A stretch of 64,000 nt of DNA from Gammaproteobacteria bacterium (GTDB lineage Bacteria; Pseudomonadota; Gammaproteobacteria; Steroidobacterales; Steroidobacteraceae): the NCBI GenBank assembly GCA_016874235.1, contig VGUJ01000001.1, positions 1-64,000 of the forward strand. The letters are read 5' to 3'. The notes beneath the pieces were generated by a model, which saw only the letters and a list, made by a program, of their open reading frames with translations, did not search any database and was not told the DNA's origin. Below are positions 3,606 through 61,492 of the stretch, piece by piece; position 1 is the first letter of the stretch; each line of letters begins with the position of its first letter. The position numbers were made by a program, and so were the translations under genes.

Positions 3606-4475
3606 TTAAACCGCTGCTGCGCCGCCGACGATTTCCGCCAATTCCTTGGTGATCGCCGCCTGACGCGCCTTGTTGTAAACCAATTGCAGGTCGCCGATGA
3701 GCTTGCCCGCATTATCCGAAGCCGCTTTCATCGCGACCATTCGTGCGGCCATTTCGCAGGCCACGCTTTCTACCGCTGAGCGGTAGACCTGAGACTCGAT
3801 GTAGCGCATGAGCACACCGTCGATGATCTCGGCGGCATTCGGCTCGTAGATGTAGTCCCAGTGCTCCTGAAGGTCGCCAGCATCCGACGTTTCGACCGGC
3901 AGCAACTGCGTCACGACCGGTTTCTGGGTCATCGTGTTGACGAACTGCGCGTTCACGATGAAAAGACGATCGATGGTGCCCTCGCGATACGCGTCGAGCA
4001 TGACCTTGACTGAGCCGAGCAAATCTTTGACGTGCGGACGATCACCGAGACCGCCAATGCTGGCGAGGATCGGCAACCCTAAGCGGCGGAAGAACGCCAC
4101 GCCCTTGTTTCCGAGCAGGCAAAGATTGACCTTGGCGCCCTTGCCCTGCCACTCGCGCATGAGCATGAGCGTGCTCTTGAAGACGTTCGTATTGAGCGCA
4201 CCGCACAGACCGCGGTCACTTGACACGACGATGATGCCTATCGATTTAGGCTCACGCTCGACCAGGAACGGGTGGCGGTAGTCGGGGTTCGCCTTGTTGA
4301 GATGCCCGATGACGATACGGATCTTCTCGGCATAAGGACGCGACAAGCGCATGCGATCTTGAGCGCGGCGCATCTTGCTCGCCGCGACCATCTCCATAGC
4401 CTTGGTGATCTTCTGAGTGCTCTTCACACTCGCGATCTTGGTGCGTATTTCCTTTGTGCCGGGCATATCCGTCAA
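3606..4475 (-). CDS. atpG: F1Fo ATP synthase gamma subunit
   Basis: Gamma is the central rotating shaft of F1. The 289 residues start with the conserved [20 protein letters not shown] helix and end with the matching C-terminal helix ([20 protein letters not shown]), which together form the coiled coil. The [11 protein letters not shown] motif in the Rossmann-like domain is present. It begins 6 bases after the atpA stop, as expected for a coupled operon. Confidence 0.97.
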
Positions 4476-8833: not shown

Positions 8834-8862
8834 ATTATAGGGTCGCGACCCTAGGTCATCAA
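8834..8862 (-). promoter_or_regulatory. Predicted sigma-70 promoter of the atp operon
   Basis: On the minus strand there is TTGATG (8862-8857), a 17-base spacer and a perfect TATAAT (8839-8834). The -35 hexamer overlaps the parB stop codon. Transcription would start near 8827, giving a leader of roughly 115 bases before atpI. The spacer is almost filled by a 16-base palindrome. No other good promoter is seen between parB and atpI. Confidence 0.65.
8838..8853. repeat. 16-bp perfect palindrome in the atp promoter spacer
   Basis: TAGGGTCGCGACCCTA reads the same on both strands. It occupies the spacer of the predicted atp promoter and touches its -10 hexamer. This is a typical place for a repressor site. 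It could instead be a short hairpin behind parB. I do not recognise it as the site of a known regulator. Confidence 0.75.
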
Positions 8863-9794
8863 TGGATGTGAGACAGGATTCCGTCGAGCTCGTCGAGCGA
8901 GTGGTATGCGATCACGAGCCGACCCTTGCCGCCTTTGCCGATCGATTCGATTTTGACGTCGGCGCCTAAGGTTTCGGAGAGCCTATTTTCGAGCTCGCGA
9001 ACGTTGGCATCCGTCGCTGCGCTGGGGGCTCCGGACCCAAAATCGCGATCCATTCCGTCATCTTTTTTAGGCGGATTGTTCAGCCGGCGAACCAATGCTT
9101 CGGTTTCACGAACTGATAGGCCCTTTTTCGAAACCAATTGACCCACTTCAACTTGCTGACGCTTTTGCGTCAAACCGAGCAAGGCACGGGCGTGGCCCAT
9201 CTCGATCTGGCGACGATCGACCAGTTCGGCGACCTCGGCAGGCAACTCGAGCAGACGCAGCAGGTTGCTGACCGCGGCACGAGACCGACCCACGGCGTCG
9301 GCCGCCTGCTGATGGGTCACCTCGAACTCGCGGATCAGACGATCGAGGGCTCGGGCCTCTTCGAGCGGATTGAGGTTCTCGCGTTGGATATTTTCGATCA
9401 GCGCCATGGCGATGGCGCTCTCGTCCGGTACCCGACGGATGACCGCCGGGATCGTCTCGAGGCCGGCCATCTGGGCGGCTCGCCAGCGACGCTCGCCGGC
9501 GATGATTTCGTAACGCGTGGGCCCCGCCCCCGGCGCGGCCCCCGGCATCTCGATCGGCCGCACGACGATGGGCTGAACCACGCCCTGGGCGCGAATGGAA
9601 CTTGCGAGATCCTCGAGCGCTTCCTCGCGCATGTCGACGCGAGGTTGGTAACGACCCCGTTGCAGCTGATCGAGCGGCAGCTTCGCAAGCTCATCGCCCG
9701 GCAGGGCGGGCGCGCCGGTCGAGGCCCGGCTGGCGCTCATCTGTCCGAGCAGCGCATCGAGACCACGGCCGAGAACGGGCTTTTTCTGGTTCAT
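8859..9794 (-). CDS. parB: Chromosome-partitioning protein ParB (parS-binding CTPase)
   Basis: ParB loads at parS, uses CTP to slide and spread along DNA, and recruits ParA and condensin to segregate the origin. The 311 residues show GVVQP at 71-75, the CTP-binding motif GERRWRA at 100-106, the conserved ENIQRENLNPLEEA at 134-147, a helix-turn-helix region at about 150-200 and a C-terminal dimerisation domain. Its start overlaps the preceding membrane-protein gene by 4 bases (ATGA). Two matching parS sites are in recF. Confidence 0.96.
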   Translation of the reverse strand: MNQKKPVLGRGLDALLGQMSASRASTGAPALPGDELAKLPLDQLQRGRYQPRVDMREEALEDLASSIRAQGVVQPIVVRPIEMPGAAPGAGPTRYEIIAGERRWRAAQMAGLETIPAVIRRVPDESAIAMALIENIQRENLNPLEEARALDRLIREFEVTHQQAADAVGRSRAAVSNLLRLLELPAEVAELVDRRQIEMGHARALLGLTQKRQQVEVGQLVSKKGLSVRETEALVRRLNNPPKKDDGMDRDFGSGAPSAATDANVRELENRLSETLGADVKIESIGKGGKGRLVIAYHSLDELDGILSHIH

Positions 9795-10579
9795 ACGCGG
9801 GATGATAGCGGAGTCGCCGACGTCATCGCCGTCACCTCTCGGGGCTGGTTTTCACCGATACCGAGAAAGATCTCCCGGAAAGCGACATAGCCGAGCGCGC
9901 CAAAGAAGCAGTACAGCACGGGGACGATCGGCGGTAACAACAAGGCAAAGGCCGCCGGTAACACCATGAAGAGCAGGGCCACTCCGAGCATGGGGCCGAT
10001 ATTGCGGATCTGCCCCGCCGCACCGAGCCGCCAGGCCTCGCGGAACGACAGCCCGAGCAGGGTGATGCCAAGAAACTGGAAAAACGACGTCAGCCCGGGA
10101 ATATTAAGGCCGAAGTAACACAGCCCGAGAGCAAAGGCCGAGTACACAAAGATTTGTCGCAGGGCGGCGAATCCGTCGGCAGAGAGTACATCGACCGAAT
10201 TCCGCTCGGTGTACAGGATGTTCCACCACGCGACACCGGGCTTGGCGAGCAGCAGCACCCACACGAGTCCGCCGGCGATCGCGACGATGCCTGCGAACAT
10301 GAGGAGCACCCGAAGCTTGCCCCGCAACATCTCGAGAGCCTCCCCGAGAGAGATGCGGCCGCTGCGATCGACGTGGGATGCAATCAGCATGCAGGAAAGC
10401 AGCGCGACGAGCGCCAGGATGCCGCTCACGAGCGGAAATCGATGCCCGACGAACATCCAGAGACACATAAGCAAAGAAAGAACAGACCAGAAGCCGAGTC
10501 CGCGGCGCAGCAGATCGATGGCTTGCCGTGACCAGCGCAGCACCGCGCCGGGCGCTGCACTGCGCGGCTCGATCAGCAT
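9791..10579 (-). CDS. Unrecognised polytopic membrane protein between parA and parB
   Basis: I do not recognise a function. The 262 residues have about six hydrophobic segments (roughly 29-45, 49-67, 90-111, 143-160, 163-180 and 194-230), a basic N-terminus and a short polar C-terminus. The overall look recalls the BPSS1780-type membrane proteins, but this is weak. It starts 3 bases after the parA stop and its stop overlaps the parB start as ATGA, so it must be co-translated with the partition genes. This suggests, but does not prove, a membrane role linked to chromosome segregation. Confidence 0.85.
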   Translation of the reverse strand: MLIEPRSAAPGAVLRWSRQAIDLLRRGLGFWSVLSLLMCLWMFVGHRFPLVSGILALVALLSCMLIASHVDRSGRISLGEALEMLRGKLRVLLMFAGIVAIAGGLVWVLLLAKPGVAWWNILYTERNSVDVLSADGFAALRQIFVYSAFALGLCYFGLNIPGLTSFFQFLGITLLGLSFREAWRLGAAGQIRNIGPMLGVALLFMVLPAAFALLLPPIVPVLYCFFGALGYVAFREIFLGIGENQPREVTAMTSATPLSSRV

Positions 10580-10582
10580 CGT

Positions 10583-11398
10583 TCAGCCAGCAGGGCGCGC
10601 GGCGCCCATCGCAGCAGAAGCTGTCATGGGCACCTCGCCGCGTCCGATCATTTCGCCGGCGAGAGCGAGGTAAGCGAGTGCGCCGCGCGAATCTTTGTCG
10701 TGCAGCAACGCGGGCTTGCCGAAAGACGGTGCCTCGGCGAGCCGAACATTGCGTGGCACGATGGTGCTGAACACCTTGTCACCGAAGTGCTCGATCAATT
10801 GCGCACTGACCTCATTTGCGAGGTTGTTTCGCGGATCGAACATCGTGCGCAGTACGCCTTCCACCTGAAGGCTGGGATTCACGGCTTCTTTGATCTGCTC
10901 GATGGTGGACAGCAGCGCCGTCAGCCCCTCGAGTGCGTAGTACTCGCACTGCATCGGTACAAGCACGCCATCGGCGGCGACGAGCGCATTGACGGTCAGC
11001 ATGTTCAGTGAAGGCGGACAGTCGATGAGGATGACATCGAAGTCATCGCGTACGGGCTTCAGCGCATTTCGTAATCGGATCTCGCGACCGACGGACATCG
11101 ACAGCAGCTGTACTTCGGCAGCGGTCAAATCTTGGTTGGCTGGTAAGAGCGACATCACCGGGGACTCGAGTGCGACGAGTGCATCGCGTGTCGAGCAGTC
11201 GCCGGTCAATACATCGCCGATGCCGCGGGTGATCGAAGTTTTTTCGACACCGCAACCCATCGTCGCATTACCTTGAGGATCAAGATCGACGAGCAGCACT
11301 CGACGGCGCGTGACGGCGAGCGACGCGGCGAGGTTGACTGCGGTGGTGGTCTTGCCGACGCCGCCTTTCTGGTTGGCGACGGCGATGATGCGGGCCAT
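10583..11398 (-). CDS. parA: Chromosome-partitioning ATPase ParA
   Basis: ParA is a dimerising ATPase that binds nucleoid DNA and moves ParB-parS complexes. The 271 residues carry the deviant Walker A KGGVGKTT at 11-18, the DLDPQGN signature at about 38-44 and DCPPSLNMLT in the Walker B region. It starts 24 bases after the rsmG stop and is directly followed by the membrane-protein gene and parB. Confidence 0.96.
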   Translation of the reverse strand: MARIIAVANQKGGVGKTTTAVNLAASLAVTRRRVLLVDLDPQGNATMGCGVEKTSITRGIGDVLTGDCSTRDALVALESPVMSLLPANQDLTAAEVQLLSMSVGREIRLRNALKPVRDDFDVILIDCPPSLNMLTVNALVAADGVLVPMQCEYYALEGLTALLSTIEQIKEAVNPSLQVEGVLRTMFDPRNNLANEVSAQLIEHFGDKVFSTIVPRNVRLAEAPSFGKPALLHDKDSRGALAYLALAGEMIGRGEVPMTASAAMGAARPAG

Positions 11399-11422
11399 GG
11401 CTAGAGTCTAGCGCAAGCGTCG

Positions 11423-12088
11423 TCAGGCCATCCGGCGCAGCGCGATGACATGTCGCGACTCAGCGAGCCCCGGAATCGATAGATCGCGATCGGTCTCAAT
11501 GCGCCACCCGGCGGGCAGGCCCTCACGTTCTGCACTTTGACGCCGACCCTTCATCGCCAATACGAGGGTTTTCGGTCCGCATAGACCCGCCACCTTCTCG
11601 AGTAACTCCGGTAAGGGTGCAAAGGCACGCGTGACCACCGTGTCGTAAACCGTCGAGGGCGTATGGGCCTCGGCGCGGGCGTGCACGGCTTGTACGTGGC
11701 CGAGATTGAGTGTCCGCGCCACATGCGCCACAAAGCGCACTTTCTTTCCGTTGGAGTCGAGCAGTGTGAACTGTCGATTTGGGTCAACGATGGCGAGCGG
11801 CAACCCCGGAAACCCGGCGCCCGTCCCCACATCGATGACTCGCAATCCCTCGAGCAGGGGCCATACGGCAAGACTATCGAGCAAATGCCGGACGACCATG
11901 TCGCGCCGCTCACCGATGGCGGTGAGGTTGTAGGTTTTGTTCCAACGCGACAACTCATCGAGCAACATCAGCAACTGACGCGCCGCGGGCTCATCGAGTG
12001 TGACCCCCATCGACGCCGCATCTTTGATGAGCGCCGCGCGCTCCGCATCGAAGTTTGATGGGCGCGAAGGAGAGCTGACCGACATCAC
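11423..12088 (-). CDS. rsmG: 16S rRNA (guanine527-N7)-methyltransferase
   Basis: RsmG methylates G527 of 16S rRNA using S-adenosylmethionine. The 221 residues show NKTYNLTAI at 50-58 and the SAM-binding DVGTGAGFPG at 86-95. The gene is upstream of parA on the same strand, the usual gidB-parA-parB arrangement. The usual upstream partner mnmG is about 45 kb away in this window. Confidence 0.96.
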   Translation of the reverse strand: MMSVSSPSRPSNFDAERAALIKDAASMGVTLDEPAARQLLMLLDELSRWNKTYNLTAIGERRDMVVRHLLDSLAVWPLLEGLRVIDVGTGAGFPGLPLAIVDPNRQFTLLDSNGKKVRFVAHVARTLNLGHVQAVHARAEAHTPSTVYDTVVTRAFAPLPELLEKVAGLCGPKTLVLAMKGRRQSAEREGLPAGWRIETDRDLSIPGLAESRHVIALRRMA

Positions 12089-44489: not shown

Positions 44490-48290
<3,801 letters not shown>

Positions 48291-49364
48291 TCATACCCGA
48301 AATACCCTGCCCTGTTCCACGTGAAACACGGTTTCTGGTTGGCCAAAAAGAGGGCTGTCTCGATCCAGCGCGGTGACGATCAACTGGGTCTCCAGTGCCT
48401 CAACCCGCGCGATGAACCGCGCCAATCGATCACGATCGAGCTCGGCCGACGGGTCGTCTAAAAGCACCGTTGGGCTGAGTCCATGTTCGCGCTTTAAGAA
48501 TTCAAGCTGACAGAGATTCAGGGCCACTGCGGCGAGCTTCTGCTGTCCTCTCGACAACACCTCCCGCGCCACTCGACCACTCATCCTCAGAGTGAGATCG
48601 GCCCGATGGGGCCCGACCGTGGTGGATCGGCGATCTCGGTCCCGGCCGGCCGACGCAGCCAGCAGATCAGCTAGGGAGTGGTCTCGGTCCCATCCAGGTT
48701 GAAAATCGAGCGTGATCTCTAAACCGGTCAGCTCAGCGGCGACCTCGGACCAGTAGGGCGCCAATGCCATCGCCACCCGCTCCCGCGCTCCTGTCAGCAC
48801 TTCGCCCTCTCGGGCGAGCTCTGGGTCCCAAGCCGTGAACTCGGCGCGGCCCGAACGAAGTGCGGCGTTTCGTTGCTGTAGTGCTTTTTGGTATCGCGCC
48901 CAGCTTGAGGCGAACCCTTGTTCCACGTGGAACACGGCCCAGTCCAGCCACCGGCGGCGGCGAGCCGACCCCTCCTCGATGAGTTTATGGGCGTCCGGAT
49001 CCATGGCTTGCACGGGGAACGCCAGGGCGAGCTCCGCAAAACTGCGTAAGTCAGCGCCGTCCAAGCGCCCTATCGTCCCGGTTTTACCTTCAGCCGAACG
49101 TTGGATTTCAATACCCAGTCGCCGGGTGACCGGTTCGGCGCTCACCTGGCCCATAATCCGAGCTAAGGGCTTTCCGTGTTGGATGAGGCGTTCGTTAAGG
49201 CGGGTTCGGAACGATCGACCGCGGCCGAGCAGAAACACCGCCTCCAGGACCGTGGTCTTTCCTGCACCGTTTGCGCCGAAGACCAAATTGGTTCCAGGCC
49301 CGAACGCCAACTCGGCTTTGTCGATGCAGCGGAGGTTCTCGAGCGTGAGCTCCGCTAGAGGCAT
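48291..49364 (-). CDS. recF: DNA replication and repair protein RecF
   Basis: RecF helps load RecA at single-strand gaps. The 357 residues have Walker A GANGAGKTT at 30-38, the ABC-type signature SRGQQKLAAVAL, and Walker B VLLDDPSAELD. The peptide VFHVEQ occurs twice, at 144-149 and 346-351; both copies are encoded by parS sites. The start is 8 bases after dnaN. Confidence 0.96.
   Translation of the reverse strand: MPLAELTLENLRCIDKAELAFGPGTNLVFGANGAGKTTVLEAVFLLGRGRSFRTRLNERLIQHGKPLARIMGQVSAEPVTRRLGIEIQRSAEGKTGTIGRLDGADLRSFAELALAFPVQAMDPDAHKLIEEGSARRRRWLDWAVFHVEQGFASSWARYQKALQQRNAALRSGRAEFTAWDPELAREGEVLTGARERVAMALAPYWSEVAAELTGLEITLDFQPGWDRDHSLADLLAASAGRDRDRRSTTVGPHRADLTLRMSGRVAREVLSRGQQKLAAVALNLCQLEFLKREHGLSPTVLLDDPSAELDRDRLARFIARVEALETQLIVTALDRDSPLFGQPETVFHVEQGRVFRV
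48313..48328. promoter_or_regulatory. parS centromere site 1
   Basis: TGTTCCACGTGAAACA matches the conserved 16-bp parS consensus, with one half of each common variant. It lies within the last codons of recF (residues 346-351). Confidence 0.93.
48919..48934. promoter_or_regulatory. parS centromere site 2
   Basis: TGTTCCACGTGGAACA is a perfect 16-bp palindrome and a consensus parS site. It lies inside recF (residues 144-149), 606 bases from site 1, and about 1.7 kb from the dnaA-dnaN intergenic region. Confidence 0.95.
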
Positions 49365-49372
49365 TCCCTGTC

Positions 49373-50470
49373 TCAGAGCCGCATCGGCATCACCACATAC
49401 TTCGTCCCATCGGGCGACGCAGCGGTGATCAAGCAGCTGCTATTGGAGTCGGTCAGCGCGATATTGACGCGATCGGTATCGATGGCGGACAAGGCATCGA
49501 GCAGATACGTGACATTGAAGCCGATTTCGATTTCTTCCCCGGCGTAACTGACCTCGATCTGATCCTCAGCCTCTTCTTGCTCGGGGTTGTGGGCCTGAAG
49601 GGTCAGTAGGTTCGGCTTAACATTCAGTCGAATGCCGCGGTATTTTTCGTTCGACAAAATTGCCGTTCTAGAGAGACTTTGCTTCAAAAATCCACGATCT
49701 GCGTCGATTATACGGTGAGCATTCGCGGGAATGACCCGGTTGTATTCCGGGAAACGACCGTCAATAAGCTTTGAAGTGAAGCGAACGTCGCCGATCTCGC
49801 AGCGAACGTGGTTGGTCCCGATCTCTAGAGCAACTTCCCCTTCCGTCCCGAGCATCCGCTGGAGCTCCATCACACCTTTGCGGGGCAAAATCACCTGCTG
49901 CTTGCCGGTCACTCGTTCTTTGAGCGCGGCTTCGCAGAGGGCGAGACGGTGCCCGTCTGTTGCGACGGCACGAACCTTTCCGCCTTCTGACTCGAGCAGC
50001 ATCCCGTTGAGGTAGTAACGAACATCCTGCTGGGCCATCGAAAAATGAACCTTGTCGATGAGCTTTCGGAATTCCGCCTGCGGAAGTTTGAGTACTTGTT
50101 GCGCGCTGATGTCCTCAACGACCGGGAATTCGGCGGCCGCGAGCGTGGACAGCGTGAATCGGCTGCGTCCCGCACGAATGACGAGCCGATCGCTTTCGAC
50201 TGCGAGGGTCACGTTGGCGCCTTCGGCCAGCGATCTCAAAATATCGAGAAATTTTCGGCCAGGCACGGTGATGTCGCCAGCTGACTGCACCTTGAGTGCC
50301 ACGGAACTGACGAGTTCCACCTCGAGGTCAGTCCCTGTGACGCTGAGTCGGTTGTTCCGAGCGCTGAGCAGCACGTTGGATAACACGGGCATCGTCTGAC
50401 GACGCTCCACGACACCGATCACATGTTGAACCGGAGCGAGGATCTCTTCGCGAGTGGCTGTGAGTTTCAT
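49373..50470 (-). CDS. dnaN: DNA polymerase III beta subunit (sliding clamp)
   Basis: The ring-shaped clamp that tethers polymerase to DNA. The 365 residues form three similar domains; LPVLSNVLLSARNNRLSVTG-like first-domain strands and the C-terminal YVVMPMRL are typical. The start at 50470 is preceded by a very AT-rich leader with no strong ribosome site. Confidence 0.97.
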   Translation of the reverse strand: MKLTATREEILAPVQHVIGVVERRQTMPVLSNVLLSARNNRLSVTGTDLEVELVSSVALKVQSAGDITVPGRKFLDILRSLAEGANVTLAVESDRLVIRAGRSRFTLSTLAAAEFPVVEDISAQQVLKLPQAEFRKLIDKVHFSMAQQDVRYYLNGMLLESEGGKVRAVATDGHRLALCEAALKERVTGKQQVILPRKGVMELQRMLGTEGEVALEIGTNHVRCEIGDVRFTSKLIDGRFPEYNRVIPANAHRIIDADRGFLKQSLSRTAILSNEKYRGIRLNVKPNLLTLQAHNPEQEEAEDQIEVSYAGEEIEIGFNVTYLLDALSAIDTDRVNIALTDSNSSCLITAASPDGTKYVVMPMRL

Positions 50471-50666: not shown

Positions 50667-52013
50667 TCAATTCGTCAGAGTTCTCAACAGATTTGAATAA
50701 TCCTCAGCGATTCGCTGCTCCTCGTCTCGGAGCGACTTGATACGTCGACATGCGTGCAACACCGTCGTATGGTCTCGCCCGCCGAACGCGTCTCCGATCT
50801 CCGGGAGGCTGTGACTCGTCAACTCCTTCGCGAGCGCCATCGCAATCTGACGAGGGCGTGCGACCGAACGGCTCCGACGTTCCGAGAGCAAGTCTGCGAC
50901 CCGAACCTTGAAATAATCCGCCACGGTTTTTTGGATGTTTTCGATCGTGATCAGCCTGGCTTGCAGGGTCAACAGGTCTCTCAGCGCATCTTTCGTAAAA
51001 TCCAAGGTGATCGGCTGCCCAGTAAATCTGGAATTAGCGATCACCCGGCGCAACGCCCCCTCAAGCTCGCGGACATTCGAGCGAATTCTCTTCGCGATAA
51101 ACAGCGCGACGTCCTGACTGAGCGTGACGCCCGCAGCTTCCCCTTTGCTGATGAGAATGGCGGCGCAAGTTTCGAGCTCGGGCGGTTCGATCGCCACCGT
51201 AAGCCCCCAACCGAAACGAGACTTTAGGCGCTCCTCTAGACCTTCTACTTCTTTGGGATAGCGATCACAGGTGAGAATGACCTGCTGCTGACCTTCGAGC
51301 AGCGCGTTGAAGGTATGGAAAAACTCTTCTTGCGAGCGCTCCTTACCAGCGAAAAACTGAATGTCGTCAATCAGCAGCGCATCGAGCGAGCGATAGGCCG
51401 CTTTGAAATCATTCATCTGGTTGTGTTGCAGCGCTTTGACCATGTCGCTCACGAAGCGCTCTGAATGCACGTACGCAACGCGCGCATGAGGATTTTTGGC
51501 GATGATGGCGTGCCCAACCGCGTGCATCAGGTGAGTCTTACCTAATCCCACGCCGCCATAAATAAAGAGCGGGTTGTACGCTTTACCGGGATTTTCAGCC
51601 ACTTGCTGCGCAGCCGCCTTGGCGAGCTGATTGCTTTTTCCGACGACGAACGTGTCGAACGTCGAGTCAGGGTTAAGGCGCCCTCCTACAATTTCAACGT
51701 TCGGTCGGTGCGTGATCCGGCTTCGTTCGCGAACTACCGGGCCTTCGATGGGGGTACTCGCGGGTTCCGGTTTTTCTCCAACCTCGATCGATACCTCGAA
51801 AGGGTCTTCACCCGTCTGCCCACGAACGAGATCGACGATCCGAGTCATCAAATGGGCGTTGACCCAGTCGACGACAAACCGGTTGGGCGCGAGTAGCCGA
51901 AGAGAGCCCCCGTTTTCGATGGCCTGCAGGGGCCGCACCCAAGTGTTGAACTGGGTATCGGGCAGCTCGGAGGCGAGCGCTTCCGAGCAACGGTTCCAAA
52001 TCGACGCGTCCAC
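50667..52013 (-). CDS. dnaA: Chromosomal replication initiator DnaA
   Basis: DnaA binds and melts the origin. The 448 residues start at GTG 52013 ([13 protein letters not shown]). Domain I carries [11 protein letters not shown]; domain III has Walker [14 protein letters not shown] and [13 protein letters not shown]; domain IV has the DnaA-box-binding motif [22 protein letters not shown] lies 11 bases before the GTG, and an in-frame ATT two codons upstream is closer to it. Confidence 0.97.
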
Positions 52014-57778: not shown

Positions 57779-59656
57779 TCAGGCGGTTCGGCGTTTCAGA
57801 TGCACGAGCAGGACGGACACCGCAGCGGGGGTCACGCCCGGCAAGCGCGAGGCCTGACCGAGGGTATCCGGTCGCGCCGCCGCCAGCCGCTGCCGCACTT
57901 CGTTCGACAGCCCAGCGACCGAGCTGTAGTCGAGGTCCCCGGGTAGGGGGGTCTCCTCGCTTTTGCGCTGTCGCTCGATTTCATCTTGCTGCCGTTCGAT
58001 GTACCCGGAGTACTTGGCGCGGACCTCGACTTGGAGACGGACCGCCTCGGGGAGCCGGTCGTCGAGGGCGGCGAGGGCGAGCATCGGGTCGGCGGAAGAG
58101 AAGGCTGCGCCGATGTCTTCCCCCGCCGCGGTGGCGAGGGCGGGGAGCCCGGCGTAGTCCACCTCGGGTCGGCGGAGCAGATCGAAGGCCAAGACCCCCT
58201 TGAGGCGGGTGGTCGACAGCCGTCGAACTTCGGTCTCGGTAGCCTCCCGCTTTCGACAGAAGAACGTCCAGCGCTCGTCATCGACGAGCCCCATCGAGCG
58301 ACCGATTTCGGTCAGTCGGAGGTCCGCGTTGTCCTCCCGAAGGAGCAACCGATGCTCGGCCCGACTCGTGAACATCCGGTAGGGTTCGGGGGCTCCGCGG
58401 GTGATGAGATCGTCCACCAAGACACCGAGGTAGGCCTCCGCTCGGGAGGGGGTCCAAGGGGCCTCGTCACGAACCTGGCGCGCGGCGTTGATGCCCGCGA
58501 CCAGACCCTGAGCACCGGCCTCTTCGTAGCCCGTCGTGCCGTTGATCTGACCCGCGAAGAAGAGCCCGCCAATGACCTTGGTCTCGAGCCAACCATGGAG
58601 GTCGCGGGGGTCGAAAAAATCGTACTCGATGGCGTAGCCGGGGCGGGTGATGTGGGCCCGTTCAAAGCCCCGAATCGAGCGCACGAATTCGACCTGAACA
58701 TCGTACGGAAGACTCGTCGAAATTCCGTTCGGATAGACCTCGTGAGTCGACAGTCCTTCGGGCTCGACGAACACCTGGTGAGAGCTCTTGTCGGCGAAGC
58801 GATGGACCTTGTCTTCGACCGACGGACAGTAGCGCGGACCGACGCCTTCGATCTTTCCAGTGAACATCGGCGAGCGATCGCAGCCCGATCGGATCAACGC
58901 GTGGGTACGCTCATTTGTCGCCGTAATGAAACAAGGGATCTGCTCTGGATGCTCATTGATGCGTCCAAGGAATGAAAACACGGGCCGCGGGTCATCGGAG
59001 TACTGGGGCGCCATGACACTGTAGTCGAGGCTTCGACCATCGATTCGGGGCGGCGTGCCCGTCTTCAGACGACCGACTCGGAGGGGCAATTCGCGCAGTC
59101 GGGCAGCGAGCGCATTCGATGGCGGATCACCCGCGCGACCCCCCGAGTACTGATCGAGACCGACGTGGATTCGGCCCCCTAAAAAGGTGCCGACCGTGAG
59201 CACGACGGCGGGCGCTCCGAAGCGAATTCCGGTGACCGTGACGACGCCCCGAACGCGCCCGTTTTCGATCACGAGATCGGCCGCCTCTTGTTGGAAGATC
59301 GAGAGGTTCGGTTGGTTCTCGAGGAGGGCCCGAATCGCCTTCCGGTAGAGCAGCCGATCGGCCTGCGCACGGGTCGCTCGGACCGCCGGACCTTTGCTCG
59401 CGTTGAGGGTCCGAAACTGGATGCCGGCTCGGTCGACGGCGCGCGCCATCGCACCTCCCATGGCATCGATTTCGCGAACGAGGTGACCCTTGCCGATACC
59501 CCCGAAGGCGGGGTTGCAACTCATCTGTCCGAGGGTCTCGATGCTCTGGGTCAGCAGCAGGGTCCGTCGACCCATTCGCGCAGAGGCGAGCGCAGCCTCG
59601 GTGCCGGCATGACCGCCCCCGATGACGATGACTTCGAATGTGTCCGCGTAACCCAT
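57779..59656 (-). CDS. mnmG: tRNA uridine-34 5-carboxymethylaminomethyl synthesis enzyme MnmG
   Basis: FAD-dependent partner of MnmE. From the ATG at 59656 it has 625 residues. The FAD motif [11 protein letters not shown] starts at residue 12, [12 protein letters not shown] and the C-terminal [18 protein letters not shown] are typical. No ribosome site precedes the ATG; a TAGAAT lies at 59672-59667. The gene runs against the predicted direction of replication. Confidence 0.97.
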
Positions 59657-59749
59657 GGTCGGCGAGATTCTATGTGAATCGATCAGATAACGCCGGCTTC
59701 GAGACCGCCCCCGATGAGGGGTGCGCGCGCTCGGCGTAGGATCGAGGCC

Positions 59750-61492
59750 ATGAGACCCCAACCCTCAAAAGTCGTTCAAGGGATCGTGGCCATCTTGGTC
59801 GGGATCCTCTCCCTCAACGCTCCGGCGGCCACGTTCGAGGTTCAGCTCCCGGCCAATCTTCGGGAGGGTCCCCAGGACGGGCGCCTACTCCTCATCCTGG
59901 TTCCAGCCGACCAGTCACCCGACCGAGAGCCTCGGTTTTTGGTCAATTGGGACAGCGGAGCGATCCCGTTTTTTGGTCTCGATGTCGAGGGCTGGAAGCC
60001 GGGAACCAGCCGGAGCGTCGATGACGGCGCCTTCGGGTTTCCGATACGCGCGCTCTCAAGCCTGCCCCCGGGCGATTACCGGGTACAGGCCGTACTCAAT
60101 CGCTACGACACCTTCCGGCTCGCAGACGGGCGAGTGCTCAAGTTGCCGCCTGATCGGGGAGAAGGGCAGCAGTGGCGCGAAAAGCCCGGCAACCTGTACT
60201 CGAGACCGACCCTGCTGCGCTGGCGTGGCCCGCTGACCGCCTCACCGCTCCCAAGGCTGGTGCTGACCGAGAAGATTCCACCGGTCGAGCCTTTCCGCGA
60301 GACGGCTTGGGTCAAATCCGTGCGCGTGCGCAGCGAGCGACTGTCCAAGTTTTGGGGCCGCGACGTGCATCTCGGTGCCTTCGTCACCTTGCCGCTCGGT
60401 TTCAACGATCGGCCCGATGCACGCTATCCGCTCGCGATCAATCATGGGCATTTCTCTTCGGCGCCCTCCAACTGGCGCGAAACACCGCCCGATCCGACTC
60501 TCGAGCCCGACTACAGTTCGCGCTTCAAGCTCGAGGGCTACAACCGCATCCAGCAGCAATACGCTTGGGATTTTTTCCAGGCGTGGACGGGCCCGGGTTT
60601 TCCTCGAGTGTTGCTCGTCGAAATCCAGCACCCCACGCCGTTCTACGACGACTCCTACGGCGTCAATTCCGCGAATAACGGTCCCTATGGCGATGCCATC
60701 CAGTACGAGCTCATTCCTGAAATCGAGCGACGCTTTCGAGGCATCGGGCAGGGTTGGGCGCGGTTCGTGTTCGGTGGAAGCACTGGCGGCTGGATCGCGA
60801 TGGCCACGCAGATGTTTTATCCCGACGAGTACAACGGCGCGTGGATCGCGTGCCCGGACCCGATCGATTTTCGGCACTACATGACCGTCAACATTTACGA
60901 AGACAAAAACGCTTACGTCATGCCGAACCGCTTCAAGCGTACACCGCGCCCTGCGCATCGAAACTGGCTGGGTCATATCGACACGACGATCGAAGAAAAC
61001 AATCTTTGGGAGCTTGCGCTGGGTACTCAAGGCCGCAGCGGTGATCAGTGGGACGCGTGGGAGTCGGTGTTTTCGCCCGTCGGCCCCGACGGCTACCCGC
61101 GCCGCATCTTTGATCGCCTCACAGGCGAGATCGATCCCGTAACCGCTGCACATTGGCGCGAAAACTACGACCTTGGACACATCCTGCGCCGCGACTGGGA
61201 GAAGCTCGGACCGAAGCTGCGCGGCAAGTTGCGCCTCTACGTCGGCGACATGGATAACTATTACTTGAACAACGCGGTCTACGCGGTCGAAGAATTTCTA
61301 CGAACCGCGCAGCCCGCCGCGGATGCCGTCATCGACTACGGCGATCGAGCCGAGCACTGCTGGAATGGCGACCACACTCGCGCGAATGCCTATTCACGCT
61401 TGCGCTATCCGCAGATGGTGTTGCCTTGGGCCACCGAGAGAATGCTCAAATCCGCGCCACCGGGTGCCGATGTGCGCAGTTGGCGCTACTGA
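59750..61492 (+). CDS. Secreted alpha/beta-hydrolase (esterase-like) protein
   Basis: A 580-residue exported protein of uncertain function. From the ATG at 59750 the signal peptide ends near LNAPAA (about residue 28). An N-terminal beta-rich domain (about 30-190) precedes an esterase-type domain with the nucleophile elbow GGSTGG (Ser344). An acidic residue in YVGDMDNY and the C-terminal His in EHCWNGDH could complete a triad. It resembles putative-esterase proteins of the PF00756 type. It stands alone between mnmG (divergent) and trkH (convergent). Confidence 0.82.

Follow-up and report, generated by a model that had tools for sequence, protein, structure and literature searches.

Two exact parS matches were identified within the recF gene of the window (the whole stretch of 64,000 nucleotides analyzed here), and they very probably represent the chromosome centromere, kept in recF by purifying selection on the DNA, which imposes codons and residues on the encoded protein. 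This arrangement is not a quirk of the window genome. The relevant features are as follows.

48919..48934, internal to recF: parS site A, perfect palindrome TGTTCCACGTGGAACA (exact match; codon table)
48313..48328, C-terminal end of recF: parS site B, TGTTCCACGTGAAACA on the plus strand (exact match; codon table)
48291..49364, minus strand: recF, 357 aa, host of both sites (ORF; TIGR00611 330 bits, cut-off 172)
45843..48263, minus strand: gyrB, downstream of recF (ORF translation, recognized from sequence)
49373..50470, minus strand: dnaN, upstream of recF (ORF translation, recognized from sequence)
50667..52013, minus strand: dnaA, marking the likely origin side (ORF translation, recognized from sequence)
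8859..9794, minus strand: parB, with the HTH ...AVGRSRAAVSN... and a GERRWRA stretch (ORF; TIGR00180 200.5 bits, cut-off 58.45)
10583..11398, minus strand: parA-like ATPase gene, KGGVGKTT (ORF; best NCBIfam model NF041546 112 bits, below its cut-off of 180)

In a scan of the window, TGTTYCACGTGRAACA was matched exactly at 48313-48328 and at 48919-48934. The codons covering site A (48918-48935, minus strand; GTG TTC CAC GTG GAA CAA) and site B (48312-48329, minus strand; GTG TTT CAC GTG GAA CAG) share one reading frame at a spacing of 606 bases, and both encode VFHVEQ, as RecF residues 144-149 and 346-351, respectively; this bears out the initial annotation, which had placed both consensus parS sites of the window in recF in the same phase. 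A third match, with three mismatches (45093-45108, in an ORF adjoining gyrB), is about what shuffling produces: shuffled versions of the window gave on average 0.51 matches at up to three mismatches, and none of 100 shuffles reached the three matches observed. The scan of the remaining genome proposed by the annotation was also made, and no other parS-like site with up to two mismatches was found in the whole assembly (1,805,733 bases, 27 contigs).

RecF was identified by the equivalog model TIGR00611, which scored above its cut-off, and by the gene order dnaN-recF-gyrB, the neighbors being recognized from sequence. The parB and parA-like genes, with one ORF (9791-10579) between them, occupy 8.9-11.4 kb, and dnaA-dnaN-recF-gyrB occupy 52.0-45.8 kb, all on the minus strand; the sites are about 37-39 kb from parAB, in agreement with the earlier estimate of about 40 kb, and the nearer of them is 1.7 kb from dnaA. 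GC skew is flat and gives no origin position, and a DnaA-box scan found a single DnaA-box-like 9-mer nearby (50525) and no cluster. The usual gidA-gidB-parAB cluster looks split in the window: the rsmG-parA-parB stretch (8859-12088), with the extra ORF 9791-10579 inside it, lies beside an atp operon and about 46 kb from mnmG (57779-59761), and dnaA-gyrB lie in between (genes recognized from sequence). The GERRWRA stretch of the window ParB is presumably its CTP motif. A Noc/NBS reading was considered and rejected, the curated Noc model TIGR04285 giving the window ParB 212.7 bits against a cut-off of 315. Sites A and B were assigned to the parS centromeres of the ParB family by the 16-bp palindrome (two exact matches), by selection on the DNA itself (the codon lock in 209 RecF genes described below) and by the presence of ParB and ParA in the same genome, the best NCBIfam model of the ParA-like ORF scoring below its cut-off.

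The distribution of the sites was analyzed in a main sample of 209 gammaproteobacterial RecF loci, comprising the window, 49 loci from an order sample of 59 genomes, 145 loci from a class sample of 184 genomes and 14 loci of additional class members in a phylum sample of 100 genomes. Excluded were fragments, repeated entries for a single genome and 47 named near relatives, which resemble one another too closely; genomes in which RecF was not found, or not among the matches listed, are likewise outside this set. An exact site was present at one or both places in 135 of the 209 loci and at both in 64, and 185 loci had at least one site within one mismatch. In the order sample, 34 of the 59 genomes contained any exact parS, and 45 of the 46 exact sites overlapped the recF match, three of them being additional sites in genus g14, while the 46th (G058) was located 25 nt after the recF stop codon. 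The class sample gave a similar picture, with 146 of 167 exact parS at A or B (145 genomes), and among 105 class genomes having exact parS every one was at A or B in 88. Thirty-six further class genomes contained 20 exact parS, counted over whole genomes and not by position. Over the class, A and B occupy fixed alignment columns, 600-693 nt apart. Because of this spread over the class, we infer that parS has resided in recF since early gammaproteobacterial history.

The closest named relatives of the window are Steroidobacteraceae and other gammaproteobacterial MAGs, with RecF identity of up to 90%. Two loci titled as Klebsiella pneumoniae MAGs (L039, CAMAQZ010000056.1; L045, CAMCBU010000013.1) look mislabelled, since their RecFs are 68-69% identical to this Steroidobacteraceae-type RecF and carry parS or a one-mismatch site.

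Selection on the DNA is visible in the codons. The peptide FHV[EK] occurs at site A in 177 and at site B in 167 of the 209 loci, and all three of its parS codons (CAC GTG RAA) were used in 173 of 177 and 157 of 167 cases, respectively, versus 13.8 and 13.2 (sd 3.5) expected when computed from the codon usage of each gene and pooled pseudocounts, although the sequences are related, so that the counts are not independent, and the expected values ignore kinship. Each of the remaining 14 of the 344 occurrences misses one codon, and among the 209 genes FHV[EK] was found at no place with three or more parS mismatches. Where the first residue is Val, its codon is always GTG (105 of 105 at A, 42 of 42 at B), and where it is Leu, the codon is CTG or TTG (44 of 44 and 30 of 30). 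In a scan of recF with five-codon windows (338 windows) for excess codon identity, the ten top windows were all at A or B (ratios 1.66-2.0, median 1.02). The per-codon excess was 2.6-3.1 at the first Val, 1.8 at His, 3.0-3.3 at the second Val and 1.9 at Glu; there was none at Phe and Gln (0.96-1.06), whose third bases parS leaves free, and none at the scored flanking codons (0.94-1.08). The lock is limited to the bases fixed by parS, leaving the Phe and last codons free. These counts favor the alternative raised initially in which selection for the DNA site overrides the protein sequence. The DNA site appears to be under selection and to dictate most of the peptide, on residues that RecF partly had already.

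Common one-mismatch forms have Pro as the last residue or Arg, Thr or Ala as the first, and they are probably still in use, because the locked core is kept. The expectation that the peptide occurs only where parS is present nearly holds within the class (330 of 344 occurrences with the full parS codons); against it, one RecF outside the class (L286) has FHVE at site B in other codons. The nearest approach to a RecF keeping the peptide at both places without parS, which the annotation had named as a refutation, is seen in three loci (L187, L106 and L241) with FHVE twice and two mismatches at each site, those of L241 lying solely at the outermost bases.

The contribution of RecF itself was assessed from sequences with degraded sites and from an outgroup of 29 RecFs from 75 non-class genomes of the phylum sample (nine best matches and 20 picked to spread over families). 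Within one mismatch of parS, Phe and His are invariant at both places and Val is present in 165 of 166 (A) and 159 of 162 (B) sequences. With three or more mismatches, Phe is kept at A in 24 of 25 sequences and His in 11, while Val and Glu dissolve; at B, Phe remains in 20 of 36, and position 4 is Leu, Val, Ile or Phe in 31 of 36. Overall, Phe is at position 2 in 208 of 209 (A) and 192 of 208 (B) gammaproteobacterial RecFs. In the outgroup, with no parS within one mismatch at any of the 29 loci, site A reads VFSSHR, VLAIDP and similar, Val occupies position 4 of site B in 23 of the 29, and the sole FHVE is TFHVES of L286 at B (codons CAT GTT GAA), where protein reasons can suffice for the peptide. 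Because the Phe and hydrophobic positions are kept without parS, and because of the outgroup Val, parS would seem to have fitted pre-existing RecF residues and imposed the rest; landing of a complete site and growth from a near match are both compatible with the data. The known structures of RecF relatives (PDB 5z67, 5z68, 5z69, 5zwu, 8a8j and 2o5v) align outside the C-terminal site.

These observations also give such support as exists for the reverse order of events, in which FHVE is a functional motif that RecF requires at each position, with the parS match as its by-product. Conservation of Phe at A, Val at position 4 of B in the outgroup and TFHVES in L286 would all fit it, as would Escherichia coli K-12, which keeps CFHNEP (A) and MFTVEK (B) and belongs to a family described as lacking par genes (PMC3909081). 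However, a protein motif would leave the codons free, whereas those for His, Val and Glu are exactly those of parS in nearly every case; the bases that parS leaves free are free indeed, and without parS the His, Val and Glu residues vary. We therefore regard a protein-first origin as very improbable. The DNA site probably preceded the peptide.

That the same peptide is encoded twice is less odd than it looks and is not strange in itself. Since parS is a palindrome, it has only three translations, whichever its orientation, C[FS]T[W/stop]N, [LMV]FHV[EK][QH] and xV[SP]R[EG]T, and two sites share a phase by chance in one case of three. Among 285 RecF loci, 426 sites had no more than one mismatch and lay within a stop-to-stop frame; 420 of them were in the FHV phase, five in the third and one in the first, these being mostly the same two inherited sites rather than independent occurrences. 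In genus g14, three genomes (G036, G009 and G057) contain an additional exact parS in recF in another phase, read as DVSRET (offsets in the RecF frames: L007 326, L011 299, L006 227), and a fourth (G023; locus L005) has a site in the DVSRET phase with one mismatch. The second alternative of the initial annotation, reuse of a tolerable phase, holds as well, as the FHV phase fits RecF (Phe as the second residue and, at site B, Val as the fourth).

Next to the selective pattern, genomes with lost or moved partition elements were considered. At a detection threshold of E at most 1e-20, ParB was not found in eight of the 184 class genomes, three of which had a RecF locus (G211, G170 and G171). In G211, site A has three mismatches and site B two, and its ParB-bearing congener G082 has one mismatch at A, at the outermost base, and none at B; another congener without ParB (G391) reads LFHAEP at A and has one core change at B, CAT for CAC. 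G271, also without ParB, reads CFHNES (A) and MFRVEQ (B). Within 10 kb around recF of E. coli K-12 (L330), the stretch most similar to parS has three mismatches and is at the C-terminal place (locus position 4168); it is perhaps a parS relic. In G170, both A and B are absent, and the genome has a one-mismatch parS in another recF phase and an exact parS elsewhere, while G171 (300 contigs) has lost A and kept B exact; either these two genomes are at odds with a rule of decay after ParB loss, or ParB was missed owing to the assemblies (90% and 95% complete, respectively). The congeners G298 and G329 have exact parS away from recF, with VFHSES and VFHTES at A and MFHVEH, with CAT, at B. Five of the 36 RecFs without site B (L013, L105, L183, L186 and L163) are followed by a parS 0-57 nt past the recF stop codon, four exact and one with a mismatch; there, the centromere may have moved beyond the coding frame. 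Thirteen of 40 class genomes without exact parS also have no recF site within one mismatch; five of these 13 have two-mismatch sites at both places. As ParB was matched in 12 of the 13, in two cases weakly (about 1e-23), the recF sites are not indispensable. Decay of the sites where parB is missing or parS lies elsewhere appears to be partly borne out by these genomes, in few cases and with one against.

The same data bear on the possibility that some other function of the DNA or RNA, such as binding of a different protein or a translation signal, preserves the bases. Some ParB-positive genomes lack a recF site, G171 keeps one with no ParB detected, and ParB binding to A and B is predicted here from sequence, all of which would be compatible with it. 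Against it, what is conserved follows the parS consensus down to the Y/R choice that it leaves free, five genomes have parS just past the stop codon instead, and of the ParB-less congeners, G211 has decayed sites at both places and G391 a decayed A and a single core change in B. Such a function seems slightly less probable still than a protein motif. Duplication or gene conversion within recF, suggested by the peptide and the 15 of 16 bases that both sites have in common, is hardly credible, given fixed alignment columns 600-693 nt apart over the class and flanks that differ outside the 16 bp (DWA..GFA versus PET..GRV, a visual comparison confined to the window). As explanations, chance, duplication and a protein-first motif are ruled out or almost so.

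The preferred reading of A and B as centromere sites raises the question of how the two change together. For this analysis, 256 gammaproteobacterial loci including the named relatives were used, 195 of which had parS arms at both places (at most one arm mismatch). The center was CACGTG at both sites in 185 loci, changed at one site in three and at both in seven, while independent change (rates of 8 and 9 of 195) predicts 0.4 double changes. Four of the seven were identical pairs (CACATG, CACGTA, CATGTG and CATATG), and the other three comprised the same center in opposite orientation, a half-shared pair and the ParB-less G211; laxer arms gave more one-sided changes (for example, G066 and G016). 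Both sites have left the consensus together in six ParB-bearing genomes, four by an identical change. In G141 (CATATG twice) and G079 (CACATG twice), the change replaces Val with Met at both RecF places, and no canonical parS was found in either genome. Sites centered on CAYATG were found in 14 of 370 class genomes, as a pair in G141 and G079 only; paired drift of this type is rare.

In an alignment of 90 ParB sequences (the window ParB and 89 others), we compared G-[RK]-S-R, a stretch that in Caulobacter supplies contacts to parS (PMC7383237). It differs in four of the six double-changed genomes (G141, G079, G218 and G086, not G205 and G061) and in nine of 69 genomes with canonical sites (a 70th lacks the region). 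The same changes occur in canonical-site genomes (SRSR in G177, GKPR in G155 and GRAR in G120), the ParBs of double-changed genomes are more distant overall, and a stronger contrast in an earlier, smaller set (0 of 9 canonical genomes changed) did not persist in the larger one. Coevolution of ParB as a firm result was rejected on these grounds; a link between the contact residues and paired drift is suggestive only. It is conceivable, with somewhat less than an even chance, that recF has been the gammaproteobacterial centromere since early on and that the paired sites coevolve with ParB, their centers drifting together, so that a repair enzyme acquires identical substitutions at two places on account of a DNA-binding protein unrelated to it (Val to Met in G141 and G079).

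In chromosomal parABS systems, ParB loads at parS, closes with CTP and slides along the DNA, and ParA drives origin separation. By analogy, dimers of the window ParB (8859-9794) would load at the two recF sites and, after closing with CTP, spread by sliding across dnaA-dnaN-recF-gyrB; ParA would move the ParB complex so that newly copied origins separate. Binding of ParB and segregation through A and B in the host organism are expected on the same grounds. The location of the sites within recF would go back to early gammaproteobacterial history; purifying selection on 16 bp of DNA would lock the codons and impose H-V-[E/K] and the following residue at two unrelated places of RecF, whose own demands would be Phe at the second residue and, at site B, a hydrophobic fourth residue.

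The interest lies in the wider pattern, in which over much of the class a centromere has dictated which codons and residues a repair protein carries at two places. As an example of a protein constrained by a DNA element it is a clean one, with the same 16 bp in the same phase at two places of one enzyme, a pattern that can be read in about 200 genomes. It is also a warning against reading protein function into the conserved FHVE stretches of gammaproteobacterial RecF, and RecF genes can serve as a readout of where centromeres lie and of their loss and drift. Coevolution of ParB with parS becomes testable, as does the unexplained preference of inserted parS for recF and gyrB in Caulobacter.

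A comparative parS survey from 2007, which is outside the set of papers considered here, may already list recF sites in other genera. In the available text of the papers considered (PMC5521831, PMC3909081, PMC4368675, PMC5815017, PMC7383237 and PMC7022226), parS in recF is stated for Pseudomonas aeruginosa only, and no description of a class-wide codon lock or RecF imprint was found. The window is an ordinary, well-preserved case of this arrangement known from Pseudomonas. As in the window, P. aeruginosa has two parS in recF (parS1 and parS2, of high affinity and by the origin) and parAB elsewhere in the origin region (PMC5521831, PMC3909081); unlike the window genome, where there are two sites, both in recF, it has ten putative parS, four of them near oriC (PMC4368675), and its parAB are about 7 kb away on the other side of oriC (PMC3909081), compared with 37-39 kb here. 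Any one of the four origin-proximal parS is reported to suffice for segregation in P. aeruginosa, mutation of all four gives a parS-null phenotype, and the intragenic sites were mutated with the amino acids unchanged (PMC4368675). In Caulobacter crescentus, transposon-inserted parS clusters are described as enriched at recF, gyrB and CCNA0160, by a mechanism given as unknown (PMC5815017); this organism is an alphaproteobacterium with its native parS cluster elsewhere, and the 29 non-gammaproteobacterial RecF loci analyzed here are without parS. The window system resembles chromosomal ParABS in general in its ParB above the TIGR00180 cut-off, the ParA-like ATPase nearby and the 16-bp palindromic parS near dnaA, and differs from it in that every parS-like site of the genome is within one repair gene and dictates part of its protein.
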